DNA of 64,000 nucleotides from Pelotomaculum schinkii (GTDB lineage: Bacteria > Bacillota > Desulfotomaculia > Desulfotomaculales > Pelotomaculaceae). The translations under genes and the position numbers were made by a program. Below are positions 6,834-35,495 of the stretch, one piece after another (position 1 is the stretch's first letter; every line of letters starts with the position of its first letter). The notes beneath the pieces are model-generated. The model did no database searches. It had not been told where the DNA came from and saw only the letters and a program-made list of their open reading frames with translations. The stretch is taken from NCBI RefSeq assembly GCF_004369205.1, contig NZ_QFGA01000001.1, forward strand, positions 1,302,001 through 1,366,000, in the 5' to 3' direction.

Positions 6834-6978
6834 TAATATTATAGGAGTCTTAAAAACATCTGTGGAAAGAGTATCTATATGGCCCTTCTCCTTTCTATTC
6901 AGATAAATCCTGTCGCACAGGTACAGCGCCTCTTCAACGCCATATCGCTTTTGTTCTCATTCCCTCCATCCCCTTTCT

Positions 6979-7115
6979 ATAAGCTGTGATATCTCCTGAA
7001 CAGCTACGCGCTAGTATTTCAGATGTGATGCATTGACACTTTTATGGATTACTCATTTTTCACCCCTACCTAATATGACGCAAAAAACTACCCGAACGGA
7101 TGGTGCAGGTGTAAA
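6979..7115 (-). pseudogene. Decayed 5' end of an ECF sigma gene, copy A
   Basis: Matches the promoter region and first roughly 25 codons of the intact sigma gene at 13131-13715, for example AGGAGATATCACAGCTTAT and CACCCCTACCTAATATGA. The reading frame is broken by a stop and a shift, and the match ends at 6979 where unrelated sequence begins. Confidence 0.7.
7087..7104 (-). promoter_or_regulatory. Palindromic element upstream of sigma copy A
   Basis: Degenerate copy of the inverted repeat ACCATCCGTCCGGGTGGT, also at 9768-9785 and 13753-13770, always just upstream of the same ECF sigma 5' region. It may be an operator or part of the promoter. Confidence 0.45.
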
Positions 7116-7239
7116 TTATTTTAAATATTCCTGTAAAACACTTTTGGAGCAAACCGGCTGATTATATGCCCCCTTGCGGACGGATCGACAGGGATGTCGC
7201 TCTCTGGCAAATCCAAGGAATTGATCAGTACCTGGCTTA

Positions 7240-7300
7240 AAAACTTGAAAATAAAATGTAAAACTTTTTTGGACAGGGGGGGTATCAAAAAGACCCCCTG
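7240..7300 (+). promoter_or_regulatory. Conserved cassette leader A: AAAC...GTATC element with hairpin
   Basis: Contains AAAC, a T run, then GTATCAAAAAGACCCCCTG. The G run before GTATC and CCCCCTG after it form a hairpin. The block recurs at 9995-10045 and 10841-10884 with a 15-17 base gap between AAAC and GTATC. That resembles an ECF-like -35/-10 pair. The 3' end of a decayed HTH_16 gene (frame ending IDQYLA) lies just upstream. Confidence 0.5.
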
Positions 7301-7463
7301 TTTTCTCTTTATATGGCAAGAGGGCAAGTTAGTTTCATGAGGAGGTAAGATAATGCGCTAGACCTGACGTTTTTCTGGAGAACTTGAGGCTAATGCTTTT
7401 GCTCCGGAGGAAGCCCGGGCCATTGCCTGGTTTTCAACCGGCCTGCGCCGTGAAGCGATCAGA

Positions 7464-7805
7464 TTGACTAAAAAGTACCGGCGACTGGACAAGCATGAGC
7501 TTTTGCTCCTGAATGGTCCGGTGACTCAAAACACTGATTCCGATAAGCTGACCATGCTTGATGCCATTCCGGCTCTTGTGGATGTTCCCGGTGAAGCTGC
7601 GGATATGGTATTTAGCCAGGAAGCCCTCCTGTTGCTAACACCGCAAGAACAAAGAGTGGTCCAGGCAACTATCTTGGATGGGTTTACTGAACGGGATGCG
7701 GCAAAAGAACTGGGAGTGTCACAGCCTGTGGTTCATCGCATGAAAGAGCGTGCGTTGAAGAAGTTGCGAAAACGTTTTGTCCTGGATAAGTCGATCGGCA
7801 AGTGA
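7464..7805 (+). CDS. Sigma-70 region 4 protein, cassette A
   Basis: 113 residues from TTG 7464 with a clear region-4 helix-turn-helix at about residues 55-105 (LTPQEQRVVQATILDGFT, then VSQPVVHRMKERALKKL). It lacks region 2, like SigO of Bacillus subtilis, which needs the partner RsoA. The frame is open about 33 codons further upstream, but the ATG behind AGGAGG at about 7353 is out of frame, with a TAG and TGA soon after and one base missing relative to copy B. The 5' end is therefore damaged. It is about 90% identical to the protein at 11054-11395 and precedes two cargo genes. Confidence 0.7.
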   Translation: MTKKYRRLDKHELLLLNGPVTQNTDSDKLTMLDAIPALVDVPGEAADMVFSQEALLLLTPQEQRVVQATILDGFTERDAAKELGVSQPVVHRMKERALKKLRKRFVLDKSIGK

Positions 7806-7859
7806 TGTATACGACGCCATAACGACCAATCAAAATACTTGATTGGGGATGATAATTAA

Positions 7860-8201
7860 TTGAGTTTTGATACCAAAGTTATTGAAGTGTTTACTGATGA
7901 ACTCTCTCCAATTTGTAACCAAGTAAGAGCATTATTTACAGAGTTCTCCGTACCTTTTGTTGAAAGAAACATTGTCAAGGATCGCGAAGCTTTTAAAGAC
8001 TTCGTGAAGTTAGAATTGCGCTTGGTTCCATCTTTCATATTTGCAGGTCGTTTATATGATGGATATAACCCTGAGCTTTGGGCAGGAATTGTAAATCGGC
8101 ATTTCGATATTGTAATTCCGAAAGACCGACTACAAATAGTTTTGCCAAAGAAGCGCCCATGGATAGAAATACCAAAAAAAATAATAAGCTACAGCAAATA
8201 A
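7860..8201 (+). CDS. Glutaredoxin-like protein, monothiol variant
   Basis: 113 residues. The first 80 follow a thioredoxin/glutaredoxin fold: a beta strand (VIEVFTD), an active-site-like SPIC, the cis-proline segment (VPSFIFAG) and the final helix. Only the second cysteine of the usual CxxC is present, so it is not a normal dithiol reductase. The last 30 residues are a basic, proline-rich tail. It starts at a TTG after GGGGAT, sits between the small sigma gene and the lysozyme-like gene, and has no signal peptide. Confidence 0.6.
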   Translation: MSFDTKVIEVFTDELSPICNQVRALFTEFSVPFVERNIVKDREAFKDFVKLELRLVPSFIFAGRLYDGYNPELWAGIVNRHFDIVIPKDRLQIVLPKKRPWIEIPKKIISYSK

Positions 8202-8219
8202 AAAGGAGGAATTAAGTTT

Positions 8220-8819
8220 ATGCCATCTTGTAGCGGAACAAAACCTAATTATGCTGGTTTCGTAAGTGATTATTTGTCTTACGCTACCACTGCGGCTTCC
8301 GAACTCGGAGTGTCAATCGCTTTTATTTTATGTCAATGGTATCAGGAGTGGGGTCTTCCCGCTAATAATCCAGCTTGGCAGGGATCTACCATGGGATATA
8401 CAACATGTGGTTCGTGCGGCTCTTTCCCGATGTTTTGTAGTTTAAGTGATGGTACAGGGGCATATATTGCTCAAATGGGATACTACAATGATAATTCTTC
8501 ATGGACAAACGTCTTTGGAAACCCAGTTAGCGTGTATAACTCTTATAATTGGGGATTCAATGGTGGGCAAACAGCCTATAATGTTTCTACTGATGATGGT
8601 TACTATGTTACTGCTACTAGCCAGCACTTTTATGGTGCACTTGAAAGCGGTGGTAACGGCACAACAGGAACCTATGCTGCAAATGAAGCAATTGGTGCCT
8701 CTCCCTGGAATTATGGTCACTACATGAGTTATACCTCTGGTGACACTTATCCAGGGCGTAGACTAAATGTTATATTGAACAATTCTGGTTGGGCTCCCAC
8801 GTATTGCTATGTTCCGTAA
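8220..8819 (+). CDS. Lysozyme/glucosaminidase-like cargo protein without signal peptide
   Basis: 199 residues behind a strong AAAGGAGG site. Residues 20-45 (ASELGVSIAFILCQWYQEWG) resemble the catalytic helix of glucosaminidase-fold peptidoglycan hydrolases. The block AIGASPWNYGHY near residue 165 resembles the end of phage endolysin domains. The Glu in WYQEWG is the likely acid residue. The rest is rich in Gly, Ser, Tyr and Asn, with five cysteines, and there is no export signal. It is the last gene of cassette A before a strong terminator. Hydrolase activity is inferred from pattern only. Confidence 0.6.
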   Translation: MPSCSGTKPNYAGFVSDYLSYATTAASELGVSIAFILCQWYQEWGLPANNPAWQGSTMGYTTCGSCGSFPMFCSLSDGTGAYIAQMGYYNDNSSWTNVFGNPVSVYNSYNWGFNGGQTAYNVSTDDGYYVTATSQHFYGALESGGNGTTGTYAANEAIGASPWNYGHYMSYTSGDTYPGRRLNVILNNSGWAPTYCYVP

Positions 8820-8821
8820 AC

Positions 8822-8862
8822 AAAAAGCCGGGCGATACTAATATATCGTCCGGCTTTTTTTA
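8822..8862 (+). terminator. Rho-independent terminator of cassette A
   Basis: Stem AAAGCCGG-CGATA paired with TATCG-CCGGCTTT, followed by a run of seven T. It also works on the minus strand for the convergent lipoprotein gene. Confidence 0.9.
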
Positions 8863-8865
8863 TTG

Positions 8866-9435
8866 TTACGGACGTTGTTGCTGGTTGGTTAAAATTATCC
8901 TTGTTATTTTGTTATTTTCAAGTGAAAAGTCTAGATGGGGGTAATACAGACCATTAATTTCTTCTTTATTCGCTCCATTAATGAAAACAGACTGATATTT
9001 ACTATTAGGCTGAAAGCTATAAACTACATCATATTTTTTAGTAATATATTCCAAAGAATCCCCAAGTCCAATTCCTGTATCTGTTGTTAGCTTAGAAGGT
9101 GCAGAAATTTGTATATCAACTACGCCTCCAATAACAGGTTCATTCTCACCCCTTCTATAGAATGCAACAGATAAACCCAAATCTTCATAGTACCATCTAA
9201 CAAAAGGAGTTGTAGGAAACTTGTCTTTTTTTGTTGGCTCACCGTAAAGTTTCAACACCTGTTCTTGTGAATCACCGATATGAATTCCGGCAAGAGAAAC
9301 GTTTTCTTTCGTCAAAGGTCCTGGACCGGCTTCGCTAGCGTTATTATTGACAATTTTAATTTTTTTTGAAGAACAACCAAAAAGCGTTAACAAGAGAAGA
9401 ACCAAAACTAGACCCTTAATACCTTTTTTAAACAT
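8866..9435 (-). CDS. Lipoprotein of unknown function
   Basis: 189 residues with a lipobox (LTLFGC, lipidated Cys at residue 21). Two similar units follow: IHIGDSQEQVLKLYGEP near residue 50 and IGLGDSLEYITKKYD near 120. These are reminiscent of BamE/SmpA-like proteins, where a G-hydrophobic-S/T-turn leads a helix. The C-terminus (NNKITRIILTNQQQRP) recurs fused to a sigma fragment at 9473-9733, showing that a paralog once stood there. Function is unknown. Confidence 0.7.
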   Translation of the reverse strand: MFKKGIKGLVLVLLLLTLFGCSSKKIKIVNNNASEAGPGPLTKENVSLAGIHIGDSQEQVLKLYGEPTKKDKFPTTPFVRWYYEDLGLSVAFYRRGENEPVIGGVVDIQISAPSKLTTDTGIGLGDSLEYITKKYDVVYSFQPNSKYQSVFINGANKEEINGLYYPHLDFSLENNKITRIILTNQQQRP

Positions 9436-9472
9436 ATGTCATTACCTCATTTCATATATTAGTTGAATTTTT

Positions 9473-9733
9473 TTACGGACGATTTTGTTCGTTGGATAAC
9501 ATTATCCTTGTTATTTTGTTATGTTCAATTTCAAAGATTAGATCTGGATACGTAATTAAATTTTTTTCTTTCGCAGTTTCTTCCGCATCATGTGGGTTGC
9601 GTAAAATCAAACAGCAGGTGCGTACGGCAGTCGTCCACTGTTCCCGGACAAACTCTTCATAAGCTGTGATATCTCCTGAACAAATACGCGATACCATTTC
9701 AGAAGTGATACATTGCTCACTTTTATGGATCAC
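9473..9733 (-). pseudogene. Chimera: ECF sigma N-terminus fused to lipoprotein C-terminus
   Basis: 86 codons. Residues 1-52 copy the N-terminus of the sigma factor at 13131-13715 (ITSEMVSRICSGDITAYEEF). The last 32 copy the C-terminus of the neighbouring lipoprotein (HNKITRIMLSNEQNRP). Region 4 of the sigma and the signal peptide of the lipoprotein are both lost, so neither function can survive. It is read as a deletion that joined two adjacent genes in frame. The start is a GTG behind AGGGGTG. Confidence 0.8.
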
Positions 9734-9767
9734 TCATTTTTCACCCCTACCTAATATGACGCAAAAA

Positions 9768-9785
9768 ACCACCCGGACGGATGGT
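9768..9785 (-). promoter_or_regulatory. Palindromic element upstream of the chimera
   Basis: The inverted repeat ACCATCCGTCCGGGTGGT on the minus strand, 35-50 bases upstream of the chimera's start. Second of three copies. Confidence 0.5.
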
Positions 9786-9994
9786 GCAAGTGTGAATTTT
9801 TCAAAAATATTCCCGAAAAACCCTCTTGGAGTAGACCGGCTGATATATGCCCCTGCGGATCAACAGGGATGTCACTCTCGGATTAAGGGCTACATCCCAC
9901 AGGTTGTTGAAATCCTCCGTCTTCTTATTTCTTATGTTCAAAAGCCAGCCTTATCCAGTTTGATTTATAGCAAGGGCTGAAACGTGAAGCAAAA

Positions 9995-10045
9995 TGAAAA
10001 ACTTTTTGGACAAGGGGGTATCAAAGAGGTCCCTTTCTTTCTCTT
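9995..10045 (+). promoter_or_regulatory. Conserved cassette leader B1
   Basis: AAAC, T5, GGACAAGGGGGTATCAAAG then GGTCCCTTTC, matching the leaders at 7240-7300 and 10841-10884. It lies about 270 bases upstream of the holin-like gene. Confidence 0.45.
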
Positions 10046-10310
10046 TATACAGACAGAGAGGTTGTTTAGTGAAGTCACGTTTATGGTAGCTGACTGAAAA
10101 ATATGTAGAACTTTTTTCGTTTTTGAATCGTCTATATATTAACAAACAAGTTAAATATAGGAATAGGGAGAAAGCTATCGAAAGCTAGAGGTGAAAACCA
10201 TTGGATCTAAGATGAGTAATACATTATGACAACCTCAGCTCAGCCGTTGTTTTTTGATCTGTCCGTTTTCGTATAGTAGGTCCTTTTTTTCTTCCGGAGG
10301 TGGTGATGGA
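10046..10310 (+). other. Long untranslated leader before the holin-like gene
   Basis: No gene is seen. Short self-complementary stretches occur near 10172-10192 (AGCTATCGAAAGCT). It does not match a riboswitch class I can recognise. The length and position suggest a structured 5' leader, but this is weak. Confidence 0.25.
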
Positions 10311-10613
10311 ATGCAGGATCTGTTTACCTATGCTACTCTTGGCACCCTGGCCGGCGCGGTGGCTGCGACTGTTCTGGTGGTTGATTCCATTAAAGAGCTT
10401 GGTTTTTTGAAGCGTTTTTCCACTCGTTGTCTTGTGGTGGCGGTAGCTGAAGGAATCGTCTTTCTGGCCGATATCGCTGCAGGGAGTTTTACGATAAAAA
10501 ATGTCCCGCTTTGTATTCTGAATGGTTTGCTGGTGGCGGCTTCCGCCATGGGAAGCTGGCAGGTGATTCATGATCGGCTGCTTGGTGGTTCTGAAAAGGC
10601 AAAGGGAGGTTGA
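10311..10613 (+). CDS. Holin-like small membrane protein
   Basis: 100 residues with three predicted membrane segments (about 8-27, 38-57 and 63-80) and a short charged C-terminus (GGSEKAKGG), a holin-like layout. The start is ATG 10311 behind CCGGAGG. The stop is followed directly by the ribosome site of the HTH_16 gene, so the two are coupled. Its place beside small sigma factors and a lysozyme-like cargo recalls TcdE with TcdR and UviB with UviA. No family was identified with certainty; a plain membrane protein remains possible. Confidence 0.55.
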   Translation: MQDLFTYATLGTLAGAVAATVLVVDSIKELGFLKRFSTRCLVVAVAEGIVFLADIAAGSFTIKNVPLCILNGLLVAASAMGSWQVIHDRLLGGSEKAKGG

Positions 10614-10618
10614 GTGCC

Positions 10619-10810
10619 TTGAAGAAAAAACCGAAGTTTCATGAGTTAGTTGTCAGGGCTAAAAGCGGTGATGAGAAGGCTGTTATTCAAATAGTGTATC
10701 GGTTAAATCCGGCAGTTAAAAAATATAGCCGCCGGTCGGGGCATTATGCTGAATGTTATTCGGATCTGGTAACTTGGTTAATTGGCTCAATTAATCAGTA
10801 CCCAGCTTGA
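10619..10810 (+). CDS. HTH_16 / RsoA-like sigma region 2 protein
   Basis: 63 residues of the short helix-turn-helix type found in conjugative elements and in the co-sigma RsoA: ELVVRAKSGDEKAVIQIVYR then NPAVKKYSRR. The start is TTG 10619 because GGGAGG stands nine bases upstream; TTG 10610 touches that site and cannot use it. It precedes the region-4 protein at 11054, so the two could form a two-subunit sigma factor as SigO-RsoA does in Bacillus subtilis. The pairing is inferred from family and order. Confidence 0.65.
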   Translation: MKKKPKFHELVVRAKSGDEKAVIQIVYRLNPAVKKYSRRSGHYAECYSDLVTWLIGSINQYPA

Positions 10811-10840
10811 AAAAGTTAAAAAACACAATTTAAAAGCAAA

Positions 10841-10884
10841 ATGAAAAACTTTTTTTTGGCAGGGGGTATCAAAAAGACCCCCTG
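10841..10884 (+). promoter_or_regulatory. Conserved cassette leader B2: AAAC...GTATC element with hairpin
   Basis: AAAC, T8, GGCAGGGG, GTATCAAAAAGACCCCCTG, almost identical to the leader at 7240-7300 and followed by the same TTTTCTCTTTATATGG. It lies directly between the HTH_16 gene and the small sigma gene. Confidence 0.5.
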
Positions 10885-11053
10885 TTTTCTCTTTATATGG
10901 TAAGAGGGCAAGTTAGTTTCCATGATAGGAGGTGTGAGATAGTGAGCTATACCTGACGTTTCTTCTGGCGAACTTGAGGCTAATGCTTTTGATCCGGAGG
11001 AAGCCCGGGCGATTGCCTGGTTTTTAACCGGCCTGCGCCGTGAAGCGATCAGA

Positions 11054-11395
11054 TTGACTAAAAAGTACCGGCGACTGGATGAGCATGAGCTTCTGCTCCT
11101 GAATGGTCCGGCGACTCAAGACACTGATTCCGATAAGCTGACCATGCTTGATGCCATTCCTGCCCTTGTGGATGTTCCTGGTGAAGCCGAGGATATGGTA
11201 TTTATCCAGGAAGCTCTCTTGTTGTTAACGCCCCAAGAGCAAAGAGTGGTACAGGCAACGATCCTGGATGGATTTACCGAGCGAGAGGCGGCCAAGGAAC
11301 TGGGGATATCACAGCCCGTGGTTCATCGCACAAAAGAGCGTGCGTTGAAGAAGCTGCGGAAGCGCTTTGCCCTGGATAAATCCGCCGGCAAGTAG
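11054..11395 (+). CDS. Sigma-70 region 4 protein, cassette B
   Basis: 113 residues from TTG 11054, with region 4 at about 55-105 (LTPQEQRVVQATILDGFT, ISQPVVHRTKERALKKL). The frame is open and protein-like 33 codons further upstream (from GAC 10955: DVSSGELEANAFDPEEARA). The obvious start, GTG 10942 behind AGGAGG, reads GTG AGC TAT ACC TGA C and is one base out of that frame. A full protein of about 150 residues needs a +1 shift at ACC TGA, or the gene is broken. It is close kin to 7464-7805. Confidence 0.7.
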   Translation: MTKKYRRLDEHELLLLNGPATQDTDSDKLTMLDAIPALVDVPGEAEDMVFIQEALLLLTPQEQRVVQATILDGFTEREAAKELGISQPVVHRTKERALKKLRKRFALDKSAGK

Positions 11396-11691
11396 AGCCT
11401 CAACTGCCACAGCATCGATGTCTCACGTGAAGTGGAAGAGTCTGGTTTTAGTCCAAATCGCCCTTTAATCGTTTTCTTCTCTTTGGAGGAAAGTGATATA
11501 AGCGACTGTTCTGGAAAGCGCTACAAAAGGAGAAGCGGCTTTGAGGCCGGGAATGTCCCGGCGGTAGTCCAAAAGGTAAAGAAGCGAGTATTGAGCATAA
11601 TGCGCAAGCATTATGCAATGAGTAAGTTTACCCTAAACAAAGTTTTATAATCGCTCAACATTAAACTAAAAAATTAAGGAGGTTTTGATTT

Positions 11692-12024
11692 ATGCCATAT
11701 TTATCCTATAAATTTGATGATTTGGTTCCAGAACAGTCTATCGAAACTAAAGATACATTCACTGTATCAGAAACACAGGATGTTAATGTTGTTTTAGTGC
11801 AATGGTCGTATATTGGTGGATATCAGAATCCAGCTTGGCTTACTTACAAACTCATTGCAACAAGTGGTGGTCAATCCACTGGGGAGATACGGGTTGATGG
11901 TTTGTTTACAAGTAAAAGTATAACAATTAAGTTTGAAAATGTAGCATCAGGAACCTATAAAATGAGAATCTATAACAAAGGGGCTGGTCTTGCATACGGA
12001 AATGGCCATATATATTATCACTAA
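11692..12024 (+). CDS. Small beta-rich cargo protein of cassette B
   Basis: 110 residues behind TTAAGGAGG. It starts MPYLSYKFDD and has no signal peptide. Alternating hydrophobic and polar strands (VNVVLVQWSYIGG, SITIKFENVASGTYKMRIYN) suggest a small beta-sandwich. It follows the small sigma gene after about 300 bases with no other gene, the same position that the glutaredoxin and lysozyme-like genes hold in cassette A. Family and function are not recognised. Confidence 0.6.
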   Translation: MPYLSYKFDDLVPEQSIETKDTFTVSETQDVNVVLVQWSYIGGYQNPAWLTYKLIATSGGQSTGEIRVDGLFTSKSITIKFENVASGTYKMRIYNKGAGLAYGNGHIYYH

Positions 12025-12046
12025 AGTGACAACCGGATAATAGGCT

Positions 12047-12080
12047 GAATTACTCCACCCTGAGCAGGGTGGAGTAATTC
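12047..12080. terminator. Perfect hairpin between convergent genes
   Basis: Fifteen-base arms GAATTACTCCACCCT and AGGGTGGAGTAATTC with a GAGC loop, between the cassette B cargo and the convergent anti-sigma gene. It lacks a long T run but is well placed as a two-way terminator. Confidence 0.65.
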
Positions 12081-12114: not shown

Positions 12115-13143
12115 TTATTTTAGTGGAATTTTTATGTTTTGCTGTTGGCTGCCGGCTACCTGAGGAACAAGAACAAGAAATTCTGGTATATTTTTGGGTG
12201 CCTCACATACTAATCGGGCAACCGTAATTTTCGTATCTCCTTTAATTTGGTGGCTCAGTCTTATCGAAGCGCATTGCGGGATATTATTTCCTTTATCGTC
12301 CATTACAGCACTAAAATAAAATTCCTCTGTAAGTGGCCGAATTGATTCATATTCGATTAGCATGCTTAACGGAGAAATCTTTACTTCTTTTACCATAACA
12401 GAGGTTTCTCCAAATGTCTCTTTTTTCATTGGTGAAAATGTCCTGGTGGCCGCATCTGTGTCTTTCCTCGACACAGGAATCGGCCCAAGCAGCCATTCTC
12501 CTTGTTCCTTTCCGATTTGATAAATCGCCACCTCCAGGTTGAATGCTTCAGGTAAATCATCACTCGGGTAGATTTCCACCAATCCAACCCGGCCGTTATC
12601 CGCTTTTTCACACGTCGCTTGCTTAGTATTCTGAATAGGCTTACCATTGGCAAAAAACTGCATTCCCGGGGATCCCAAAGGAATGATCAAATCTCCGGGA
12701 AAAGTTTCGGGACTAAGGTCAGGTCTGGAAGTCGTGACTGTATAGCCAATATCGATCCTCCCCTCGTCATACAACACACCTGTAATGGTGACAGAAATAT
12801 CTTTGTCCGTGGCCGTTAGGTTTGGTTTGGTCACGAACCCTTTATCCATTGCATTTTGAATTCCCCTGTCTTCGACAAAATTAAACACCGCATTGATAAT
12901 GGGGATTTGCTCCAGCGCCCTGGCTATGACCGGGAAAATAAAACCGGATAGGATCACAAGCCCGCCGATTACAACTACGGCAGCAAAGCTGCAACAGATT
13001 TTGCGAATTACCGCGTTCCTCTGAAAATTTGTATCCGCGGCCGTGTTGTCAAGGGCACGCTCACGAATTTTGTCCCATGGAACGGCTTGAACCGGGTAGC
13101 GGTCGCCCTCTTTATATATTTCCTGTCTGATCATTTCATCCAT
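12115..13143 (-). CDS. DUF4179-type anti-sigma factor, second copy
   Basis: 342 residues: a cytoplasmic N-terminus of about 50 residues, one membrane segment at about 52-72, then an extracytoplasmic DUF4179-like region. The start is ATG 13143, behind AAGGGGTG; it overlaps the end of the sigma gene by 13 bases. An ATG at 13167 is in frame but deeper in the sigma gene. It is a paralog of 1062-2063 and presumably holds the sigma factor encoded just upstream. Confidence 0.78.
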   Translation of the reverse strand: MDEMIRQEIYKEGDRYPVQAVPWDKIRERALDNTAADTNFQRNAVIRKICCSFAAVVVIGGLVILSGFIFPVIARALEQIPIINAVFNFVEDRGIQNAMDKGFVTKPNLTATDKDISVTITGVLYDEGRIDIGYTVTTSRPDLSPETFPGDLIIPLGSPGMQFFANGKPIQNTKQATCEKADNGRVGLVEIYPSDDLPEAFNLEVAIYQIGKEQGEWLLGPIPVSRKDTDAATRTFSPMKKETFGETSVMVKEVKISPLSMLIEYESIRPLTEEFYFSAVMDDKGNNIPQCASIRLSHQIKGDTKITVARLVCEAPKNIPEFLVLVPQVAGSQQQNIKIPLK

Positions 13144-13715
13144 GGTTCGTTCACCCCTTTGCAACATTCGTCTTGTAACGCTTGACTTTCTTTAAGCCGC
13201 CCGGCCATCTGACGGCGGGCCCTGGCGAGCCGCCACTTATATGTGCCTAGCGGCCAGCCTGCCGCAATTGAGGCTTCCCTGTCGGTTAAATCGCAAAAAT
13301 AGCATAGAACCAAGGCAATTCTCTCCGGCTTGCTTATATCATGCAAGACGTCTCTTACCGCAATTCTGGTATCAGCCTGTTCAATTTTATCGCCGGGAGC
13401 TAATATTTCCATGTCAGATACGGATAAAGCTTTCGACTGACGACGCCTCCGCCGGTGCGCCGCGTTTAATAAAATCCGGTAAAACCATACGCGAAATTTA
13501 TTTGGCTCCCTTAGCTGCCCACGAGACTTATACAGATTGACAAAAGCGTCCTGGGCAGCTTCTTCCGCATCATGCAGGTTGCCTAAAATCAAACAGCAGG
13601 TGCGTACGGCAGCCGTCCACTGCTCCCGGACAAACTCTTCATAAGCTGTGATATCTCCTGAACAAATACGCGATACCGCTTCAGAAGTGATGTATGGCCC
13701 ACTTTTATCACGCAC
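13131..13715 (-). CDS. ECF RNA polymerase sigma factor
   Basis: 194 residues. Region 2 is at about 20-95 (HDAEEAAQDAFVNLYKS, then FRVWFYRILLNAAHRRRRR), region 4 at about 130-180 (ISKPERIALVLCYFCDLTD, then PLGTYKWRLARARR). The start is taken as GTG 13715, behind AGGGGGGGTGA. Its promoter region and first codons recur as broken copies at 6979-7115 and 9473-9800, so the locus has been duplicated at least twice. It is coupled to the overlapping anti-sigma gene. Confidence 0.85.
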   Translation of the reverse strand: MRDKSGPYITSEAVSRICSGDITAYEEFVREQWTAAVRTCCLILGNLHDAEEAAQDAFVNLYKSRGQLREPNKFRVWFYRILLNAAHRRRRRQSKALSVSDMEILAPGDKIEQADTRIAVRDVLHDISKPERIALVLCYFCDLTDREASIAAGWPLGTYKWRLARARRQMAGRLKESQALQDECCKGVNEPWMK

Positions 13716-13752
13716 GCATCTTTCACCCCCCCTACCTAATATGATGCAAAAA

Positions 13753-13770
13753 ACCACCCGGACGGATGGT
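13753..13770 (-). promoter_or_regulatory. Palindromic element upstream of the intact ECF sigma gene
   Basis: The inverted repeat ACCATCCGTCCGGGTGGT followed by T6GCATCATATTAGG and then the ribosome site. Its survival in all three copies suggests a binding site or promoter element of this sigma gene. Confidence 0.5.
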
Positions 13771-13911
13771 TCAAGTGTTAATCTTTTAAAACAACCAAAT
13801 TGATTTATTATTTATTAAAATTGCAACTATTTTTTAGTTGCAATTTTAAAGGCTTTTAGGTATAATAAGAATACAAAAACAAATCAAAAGTAATTGAAAG
13901 ATTTAGAAATT

Positions 13912-35311: not shown

Positions 35312-35402
35312 GGTTCACCAAAAACAGCCAATAATGGATTATTCCGCCGAACTTATTCGACCCTTAGAGGGATAAGTCGTTTCTTTGTAGAATCCATAAT
35401 CA
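35312..35402. repeat. 90-base repeat, copy 2, with broken ECF promoter
   Basis: Matches 33555-33645. The -35 box TGAACC (minus strand, 35312-35317) is present, but the base positions that should hold CGTC read ATTA because the duplication junction falls there. It leads directly into the riboswitch. Confidence 0.75.
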
Positions 35403-35404
35403 AC

Positions 35405-35495
35405 AAGAAAAGGCAAACCCGTACGAAAGTCGGGGACGCAAAGCCATGGGTCTAAAGCCGCAGGGAGACTATGATCGCCAGGCTGCCGTCCGGAT
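35405..35495 (+). ncRNA. Cyclic-di-GMP-I (GEMM) riboswitch
   Basis: Contains the class I core in order: AAGGCAAACC, a GAAA tetraloop (ACGAAAGT), GGGGACGCAAAGCC, then GGGTCTAAAGCC and a 3' arm with GGCTGCCG. The conserved GGCAAAC...GGGACGCAAAGCC...CTAAA pattern is diagnostic. It lies about 50 bases upstream of an ECF sigma gene on the same strand. An eight-pair stem (CCTTCCCT at 35503-35510 with AGGGAGGG at 35525-35532) can hide that gene's ribosome site, so control of translation is likely. Whether c-di-GMP turns it on or off is not decided. Confidence 0.9.

Follow-up and report, generated by a model that had tools for sequence, protein, structure and literature searches.

The chief known bacterial case of a conserved +1 frameshift at an early stop codon is prfB. 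Across 8,164 genomes the prfB frameshift stop is TGA in 98.6% and TAA in 1.4% of cases, with 0 for TAG (PMC12421855). Regarding small sigma factors, the SigO-RsoA pair of Bacillus subtilis (YvrI-YvrHa) controls a small self-regulating regulon (PMC8103513), while UviA loci combine a sigma factor, a holin, and a leaderless protein, with an amidase nearby (PMC9527704). The group V sigma factors TcdR and UviA are marked by an SRQ motif and a −35 element TTTACA (PMC4031146). The window analysed here, a stretch of 64,000 nucleotides (nt) of Pelotomaculum schinkii (contig NZ_QFGA01000001.1), holds two cassettes with a small sigma gene each and, between them, a holin-like gene and an HTH_16 gene. The best reading of this sigma gene is conserved programmed +1 frameshifting, which is very probable. 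An earlier note on the same DNA had proposed an undescribed release system with a two-part sigma factor and exchangeable cargo (glutaredoxin-like, lysozyme-like, and beta-rich); its observation is confirmed in part and its interpretation partly supported, but it missed the presumed frameshift, the cyclic di-GMP (c-di-GMP) riboswitch, and the damage to the first sigma copy.

Early stop and shifted frame of the sigma gene

The features concerned are the following.
10942..10956, + strand: frame-0 start and putative shift site of sigma copy 2, GTG AGC TAT ACC TGA (C); layout shared by 25 loci
10955..11395, + strand: sigma copy 2 in the +1 frame, 2.4-like helix and region 4, predicted product P0001; sigma-70 region 4 and TIGR02937 matches
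7353..7367, + strand: start region of sigma copy 1, broken, ATG CGC TAG ACC TGA; relatives have TAT or TAC in place of TAG
7368..7805, + strand: body of sigma copy 1 with a 1-nt deletion past the shift site; 92% identity to copy 2

In sigma copy 2, a Shine-Dalgarno (SD) sequence (GGAGG) is followed by GTG AGC TAT ACC TGA C, where frame 0 ends after four codons. It is the +1 frame that encodes the conserved protein, and this frame has no ATG, GTG, or TTG between its upstream stop and the core; reading ACCU as threonine would give a protein of 150 amino acids (aa), P0001. The 113-aa sigma open reading frames (ORFs) listed for the window start at an internal TTG and lose a conserved region-2.4-like helix. 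Sigma homology, however, extends 5' of this TTG through DPEEARAIAWFLTGLRREAIRLTKKYR, which is among the best-conserved parts across relatives. The earlier description of the sigma protein as consisting of region 4 only is thus an artefact of the chosen start codon.

The layout was compared across 25 non-identical loci, some of which are closely related; the counts are therefore not independent of one another. Its conservation is solid: all 25 have an SD-placed start and 3–6 further codons usually ending in Tyr-Thr, then a stop, with the sigma frame lying at +1, and they span several Bacillota families on the tree, including Pelotomaculum, Desulfofundulus, and Ammonifex. The stop is TGA in 21 loci, TAA in 4, and TAG in 0, and the base following it is C in 17 (A in 5, T in 2, G in 1). 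The last codon before the stop is mostly ACC (9) or ACT (7), followed by GCT and ACA (2 each) and by CCC, CCT, GAT, TTC, and CTG (1 each). Frame 0 keeps Tyr-Thr through synonymous codons (TAT/TAC and ACC/ACT/ACA), and the +1 reading of the same bases varies (Thr-Pro, Ile-Leu, Ile-Pro, Thr-His). Purifying selection acts on the +1 frame past the stop, where the core has a ratio of nonsynonymous to synonymous substitution rates (dN/dS, NG86) of mostly 0.1–0.3. These two properties, the retained frame-0 Tyr-Thr and the selection on the +1 frame, argue for programmed +1 frameshifting rather than decay. Seven or eight distant homologues have an ordinary in-frame start at the same place (L104/L140, L105/L134, L108/L143, L109/L141, L110/L142, L111/L144, L122/L132, and probably L133).

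It is hardly credible that the early stops mark the sigma genes as decaying pseudogenes. Damage is visible in window copy 1 and in L057, L102/L131, and L124, but the dN/dS values, the recurrence of the same 5' layout in all 25 loci, and the conserved promoters and neighbours all speak against decay of the family. As for copy 1, its start reads ATG CGC TAG ACC TGA CGTTTTTC, with TAG in place of the Tyr codon, and since a single base is absent past the shift site, both stops fall in the core's own frame. The dN/dS of its body relative to copy 2 is nevertheless 0.11. With these two lesions its 5' end is probably dead and the full protein not made; most likely it failed recently, with its promoter still serving the first cargo. 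Several sigma cassettes stand in a row in L145 (genome G075) and L051 (G058), where some broken sigma copies keep the start and the shift site.

The likeness to prfB consists of an early TGA or TAA, never TAG, an often following C, and a +1 shift into the main frame; the host's own prfB keeps its +1 site CTT TGA C. In contrast to prfB, the slip codon here is mostly ACC or ACT instead of CTT, the stop falls within the first few codons, the product is half a sigma factor rather than RF2, and no internal SD-like sequence (AGGGGG in prfB) lies 3 nt upstream of the slip site.

Several points weigh against frameshifting or the wider explanation built on it. Three loci (L137, L139, and L147) do not fit +1 and would need −1, although these may be indels or errors. 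The G075 copies have an ATG in the +1 frame, while the g2 genomes (L060 and L048) start frame 0 at ATT and carry a GTG in the +1 frame. Compared with the CUU of prfB, the slip codon (ACC or ACT, sometimes GCT, CCC, CCT, TTC, GAT, or CTG) re-pairs worse. Of the two stimulators considered, neither is clear: the loci compared have no internal SD-like stretch beside the slip codon and no clear downstream RNA structure at the shift site. Finally, window copy 1 is broken, and the holin, lysozyme-like, and glutaredoxin-like calls in the window are weak. Regarding the g2 genomes, the apparent ATT start (8001 in L060, 7009 in L048) stands at the usual distance from the SD sequence; ATT is also used as a start codon by infC.

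An improbable alternative needs no frameshift: translation of the sigma protein would begin at a non-standard codon of the +1 frame, or by reinitiation after a mini-ORF of 4–7 codons that acts as a regulatory leader peptide. The mini-ORF is indeed very short, and the +1 frame near the stop offers a near-cognate ATA in some loci besides the ATG of G075 and the GTG of the g2 genomes. However, this frame has no conserved start or near-cognate codon (many loci have ACA-CCT), ATG, GTG, and TTG are often absent until inside the conserved core, and what is conserved is the frame-0 Tyr-Thr and an RF2-type stop.

If programmed frameshifting is correct, the sigma genes would form a second conserved +1 family, differing in slip site and yielding a regulatory protein, and the rules of slippage could then be tested by comparison. 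Annotation readily mistakes such genes for truncated ones or pseudogenes, and more may therefore be hidden. No earlier report of a frameshifted sigma factor was found in the openly licensed literature, subscription journals being outside the scope, and the word "sigma" is absent from the text of Antonov 2013.

Two probable halves of a sigma factor

The partner gene is the following.
10610..10810, + strand: HTH_16 (RsoA-like) protein, likely the sigma region 1.2/2 half; PF12645, aligns to the N-terminal part of single-chain homologues

HTH_16 and Sigma70_r4 are encoded by separate, adjacent genes. According to Pfam, the HTH_16 protein matches PF12645 with 26.1 bits (cut-off 22), and the matches of HTH_16 proteins to sigma models fall in the N-terminal part, while the predicted frameshift product P0001 matches TIGR02937 with 54 bits over model positions 45–164. 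In four loci single-chain homologues are found, to which HTH_16 aligns at residues ~21–101 and the split sigma at ~87–244, the latter starting with its first residues after the shift. Because these homologues join both parts, the two proteins are likely halves of one sigma factor, and the earlier suggestion of a two-part sigma factor gains strong support. Since the alignment begins with the first post-shift residues, the frameshift would also supply the 2.4-like helix missing from the 113-aa reading.

Compared by logic and not by sequence, the arrangement resembles SigO-RsoA, which likewise carries region 4 and region 2 (HTH_16) on separate proteins, and in L142 the sigma gene is followed by a YvrJ-family protein. 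Unlike in SigO-RsoA, the region-4 half appears to need a +1 frameshift in most members, the neighbours are a holin and wall hydrolases, and control by a c-di-GMP riboswitch is frequent.

With TcdR/TcdE and UviA/UviB/Bcn5, the loci share the combination of sigma factor, holin or holin-like protein, and leaderless protein, and to this extent the parallel drawn in the earlier note stands. The sigma factor itself is of another type: it is split, and the SRQ motif of region 4.2 is absent, the region reading GISQPVVHR. The conserved promoter-like element GGGGTATYAAA, accompanied by CTCTTTATA, is not the −35 element TTTACA. Membership in group V is ruled out by the missing motif and the different −35 of the inferred promoter.

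Promoter-like element and c-di-GMP input

The regulatory features of the window are the following.
7278..7313, + strand: promoter-like element 1, GGGGGTATCAAA-N12-TTTCTCTTTATA; one of three genome sites at 0 mismatches; repeat D4
10014..10049, + strand: promoter-like element 2, 5' of the holin-HTH_16 unit; genome motif scan and relatives' promoters
10158..10245, + strand: degenerate c-di-GMP-I riboswitch-like stretch; intact riboswitches at this place in relatives
10862..10897, + strand: promoter-like element 3; genome motif scan and relatives' promoters

The host genome (G000), which on the tree is closest to named Pelotomaculum species, comprises 4.4 Mb in 8 contigs, and both sigma copies and the holin-HTH_16 unit lie in this window. 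GGGTATYAAA-N12-TTTCTCTTTATA occurs at three sites in the genome at 0 mismatches, with no others at up to three, and these sites precede both sigma copies and the holin-HTH_16 unit. The motif also precedes the sigma gene in most relatives, in-frame members included, and the cargo alone in a few. This distribution suggests that the element is the split sigma's own promoter. A role of the leader hairpin as a terminator was rejected, since the in-frame class preserves the −35- and −10-like blocks but not the stem. The presumed sigma promoter stands before cargo without a sigma gene at L057 (13818) and L061 (2989), and the regulon can therefore be wider in some genomes.

As for the region-2 half, a c-di-GMP-I riboswitch at Rfam gathering score lies directly 5' of HTH_16 or holin-HTH_16 in 17 relatives' loci. 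The corresponding trace in the window is full-length but degenerate and below threshold (14.1 bits versus a gathering score of 35). In loci where no riboswitch was found (the window, L061, L145, and L057), the presumed sigma promoter instead lies 5' of the holin unit. Elsewhere in the window, at 35402–35490, there is a strong c-di-GMP-I riboswitch (72 bits).

Layout conservation, selection, promoter distribution, fused homologues, and gene neighbours are all read directly from the sequences, and from them we infer slippage, assembly of the halves, promoter ownership, and release or lysis. Region 2 of the sigma factor would come from the HTH_16 protein, and region 4 together with the 2.4-like helix from the second protein. 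To make the latter, the ribosome would start at the SD-placed codon, read about four to seven codons usually ending in Tyr-Thr, and meet TGA (TAA in 4 of the 25 loci), where a fraction of ribosomes would enter the sigma frame by a +1 slip (from ACC U to GAC). Once assembled, the sigma factor would recognise GGGGTATYAAA-N12-TTTCTCTTTATA before each sigma copy and the holin-HTH_16 unit; this placement implies self-amplification and switching-on of the holin-like protein and of leaderless cargo that acts on or binds the wall. The c-di-GMP-I riboswitch would gate the region-2 half in many relatives. Taken as a whole, a self-activating split-sigma regulon with a frameshift-made second half and an output of holin and leaderless cargo is a likely explanation. 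It would mean that split sigma factors are gated both at translation and by c-di-GMP, and that environmental anaerobes link such a switch to cassettes with holin and wall-hydrolase genes.

As only stops read by RF2 are used, the stop codon might itself be a sensor: slow UGA termination, under low RF2 or translational stress, would switch on the sigma factor, and c-di-GMP would gate the other half, so that release or lysis would depend on an AND gate. This extension is doubtful; if true, conserved RF2-type +1 frameshifting would operate outside prfB and control a transcription factor.

Holin-like protein, cargo, and surroundings

The output genes of the window are the following.
10311..10613, + strand: holin-like membrane protein, 100 aa; weak PHROG holin match
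7860..8201, + strand: cargo 1a, weakly glutaredoxin-like, TTG start; Pfam and YruB below cut-off, not conserved elsewhere
8220..8819, + strand: cargo 1b, leaderless, 199 aa, possible wall hydrolase; homologue after sigma in L136
11692..12024, + strand: cargo 2, leaderless beta-sandwich protein, 110 aa; AlphaFold model and same-slot homologues

The holin-like protein has a weak PHROG holin match (E=0.0005–0.007 across homologues), and its gene stands beside HTH_16 or sigma in ~20 loci; in L138 a BhlA holin above cut-off lies 3' of sigma. Holin, HTH_16, sigma, and cargo genes recur together in many genomes, a conserved association on which the earlier proposal had been made to depend.

According to the cargo genes, the same slot is filled by quite different proteins, in agreement with the exchangeable cargo suggested before. 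An N-acetylmuramoyl-L-alanine amidase (Amidase_3) follows sigma in L064 and L142, and another lies 3' of the holin unit in L057; a Hydrolase_2 wall hydrolase follows sigma in L051 and L145, and a glucosaminidase-like cargo, below cut-off, in L052. Beta-sandwich proteins fill the slot in the Pelotomaculum clade, and other slots hold proteins without an identified family. For the GH25-like cargo of L054/L066 and the cargo of L063, there was no family match, or none identifying them.

In the window, cargo 2 has a confident beta-sandwich model (AlphaFold predicted local distance difference test score, pLDDT, 95.6); the model resembles jelly-roll, PPC, and CBM domains only generically, and homologues occupy the same slot in 5 other genomes. 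Cargo 1a matches glutaredoxin in Pfam (E=2.6e-4) and YruB (E=4.5e-6), both below cut-off, and has no homologue in the relatives' loci; its glutaredoxin likeness is weak and confined to this window. Cargo 1b has a 58% homologue in the same slot of another genome (L136), but no family match and no PDB relative. Its lysozyme-like label finds no backing, the AlphaFold model being unusable (pLDDT 36, two sequences), though it is a possible wall hydrolase. None of the 9 cargo N-termini tested has a hydrophobic stretch like that of a signal peptide, whereas two window control proteins have one, and the claim that the cargo lacks signal peptides holds.

Holin-dependent release of the cargo, or lysis by it, is plausible and the most likely output. 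A holin with a leaderless wall hydrolase follows endolysin logic, and UviA/UviB loci combine sigma, holin, and amidase in the same way. Programmed self-lysis, for example of a subpopulation or of the spore mother cell, is a possibility to be taken seriously, if not the favoured one over non-lytic release: the cargo of several relatives is itself a wall hydrolase without a leader and would form an endolysin pair with the holin, but that of the Pelotomaculum clade is often a beta-sandwich protein without a catalytic look. It is very unlikely, however, that the cassettes are remnants of prophage lysis modules rather than a host system. The holin and amidase would suit such an origin, and the L064 and L057 amidases match PHROG endolysins, but no relative was found in viral contigs, phage records gave no holin match and only weak sigma matches, and control by a c-di-GMP riboswitch also speaks for the host. 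Phage origin thus finds no support in viral contigs or phage records.

Regarding the overall arrangement, the two sigma copies share 300 nt at 92% identity and the leader common to both cassettes 59 nt at 98%, with cargo genes 3' of each sigma gene. The earlier picture of two cassettes with a shared leader and sigma gene and differing cargo is retained, apart from the reduction of sigma to region 4. The holin-like and HTH_16 genes had been assigned to the second cassette; they are present, but belong to a unit of their own that lies between the two cassettes and carries its own promoter copy (10014).

The 5' end of an extracytoplasmic function (ECF) sigma gene is present three times (6937–7125, 9573–9806, and, as a − strand gene, 13131–13791), and the cassettes seem to have been duplicated together with the ECF sigma fragments at their edges. 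The intact ECF sigma gene (13131–13757) stands beside a possible anti-sigma gene (12115–13167). The ORF at 9473–9733 joins the ECF sigma N-terminus to the C-terminus of the lipoprotein encoded at 8866–9435 and is a recombination remnant.

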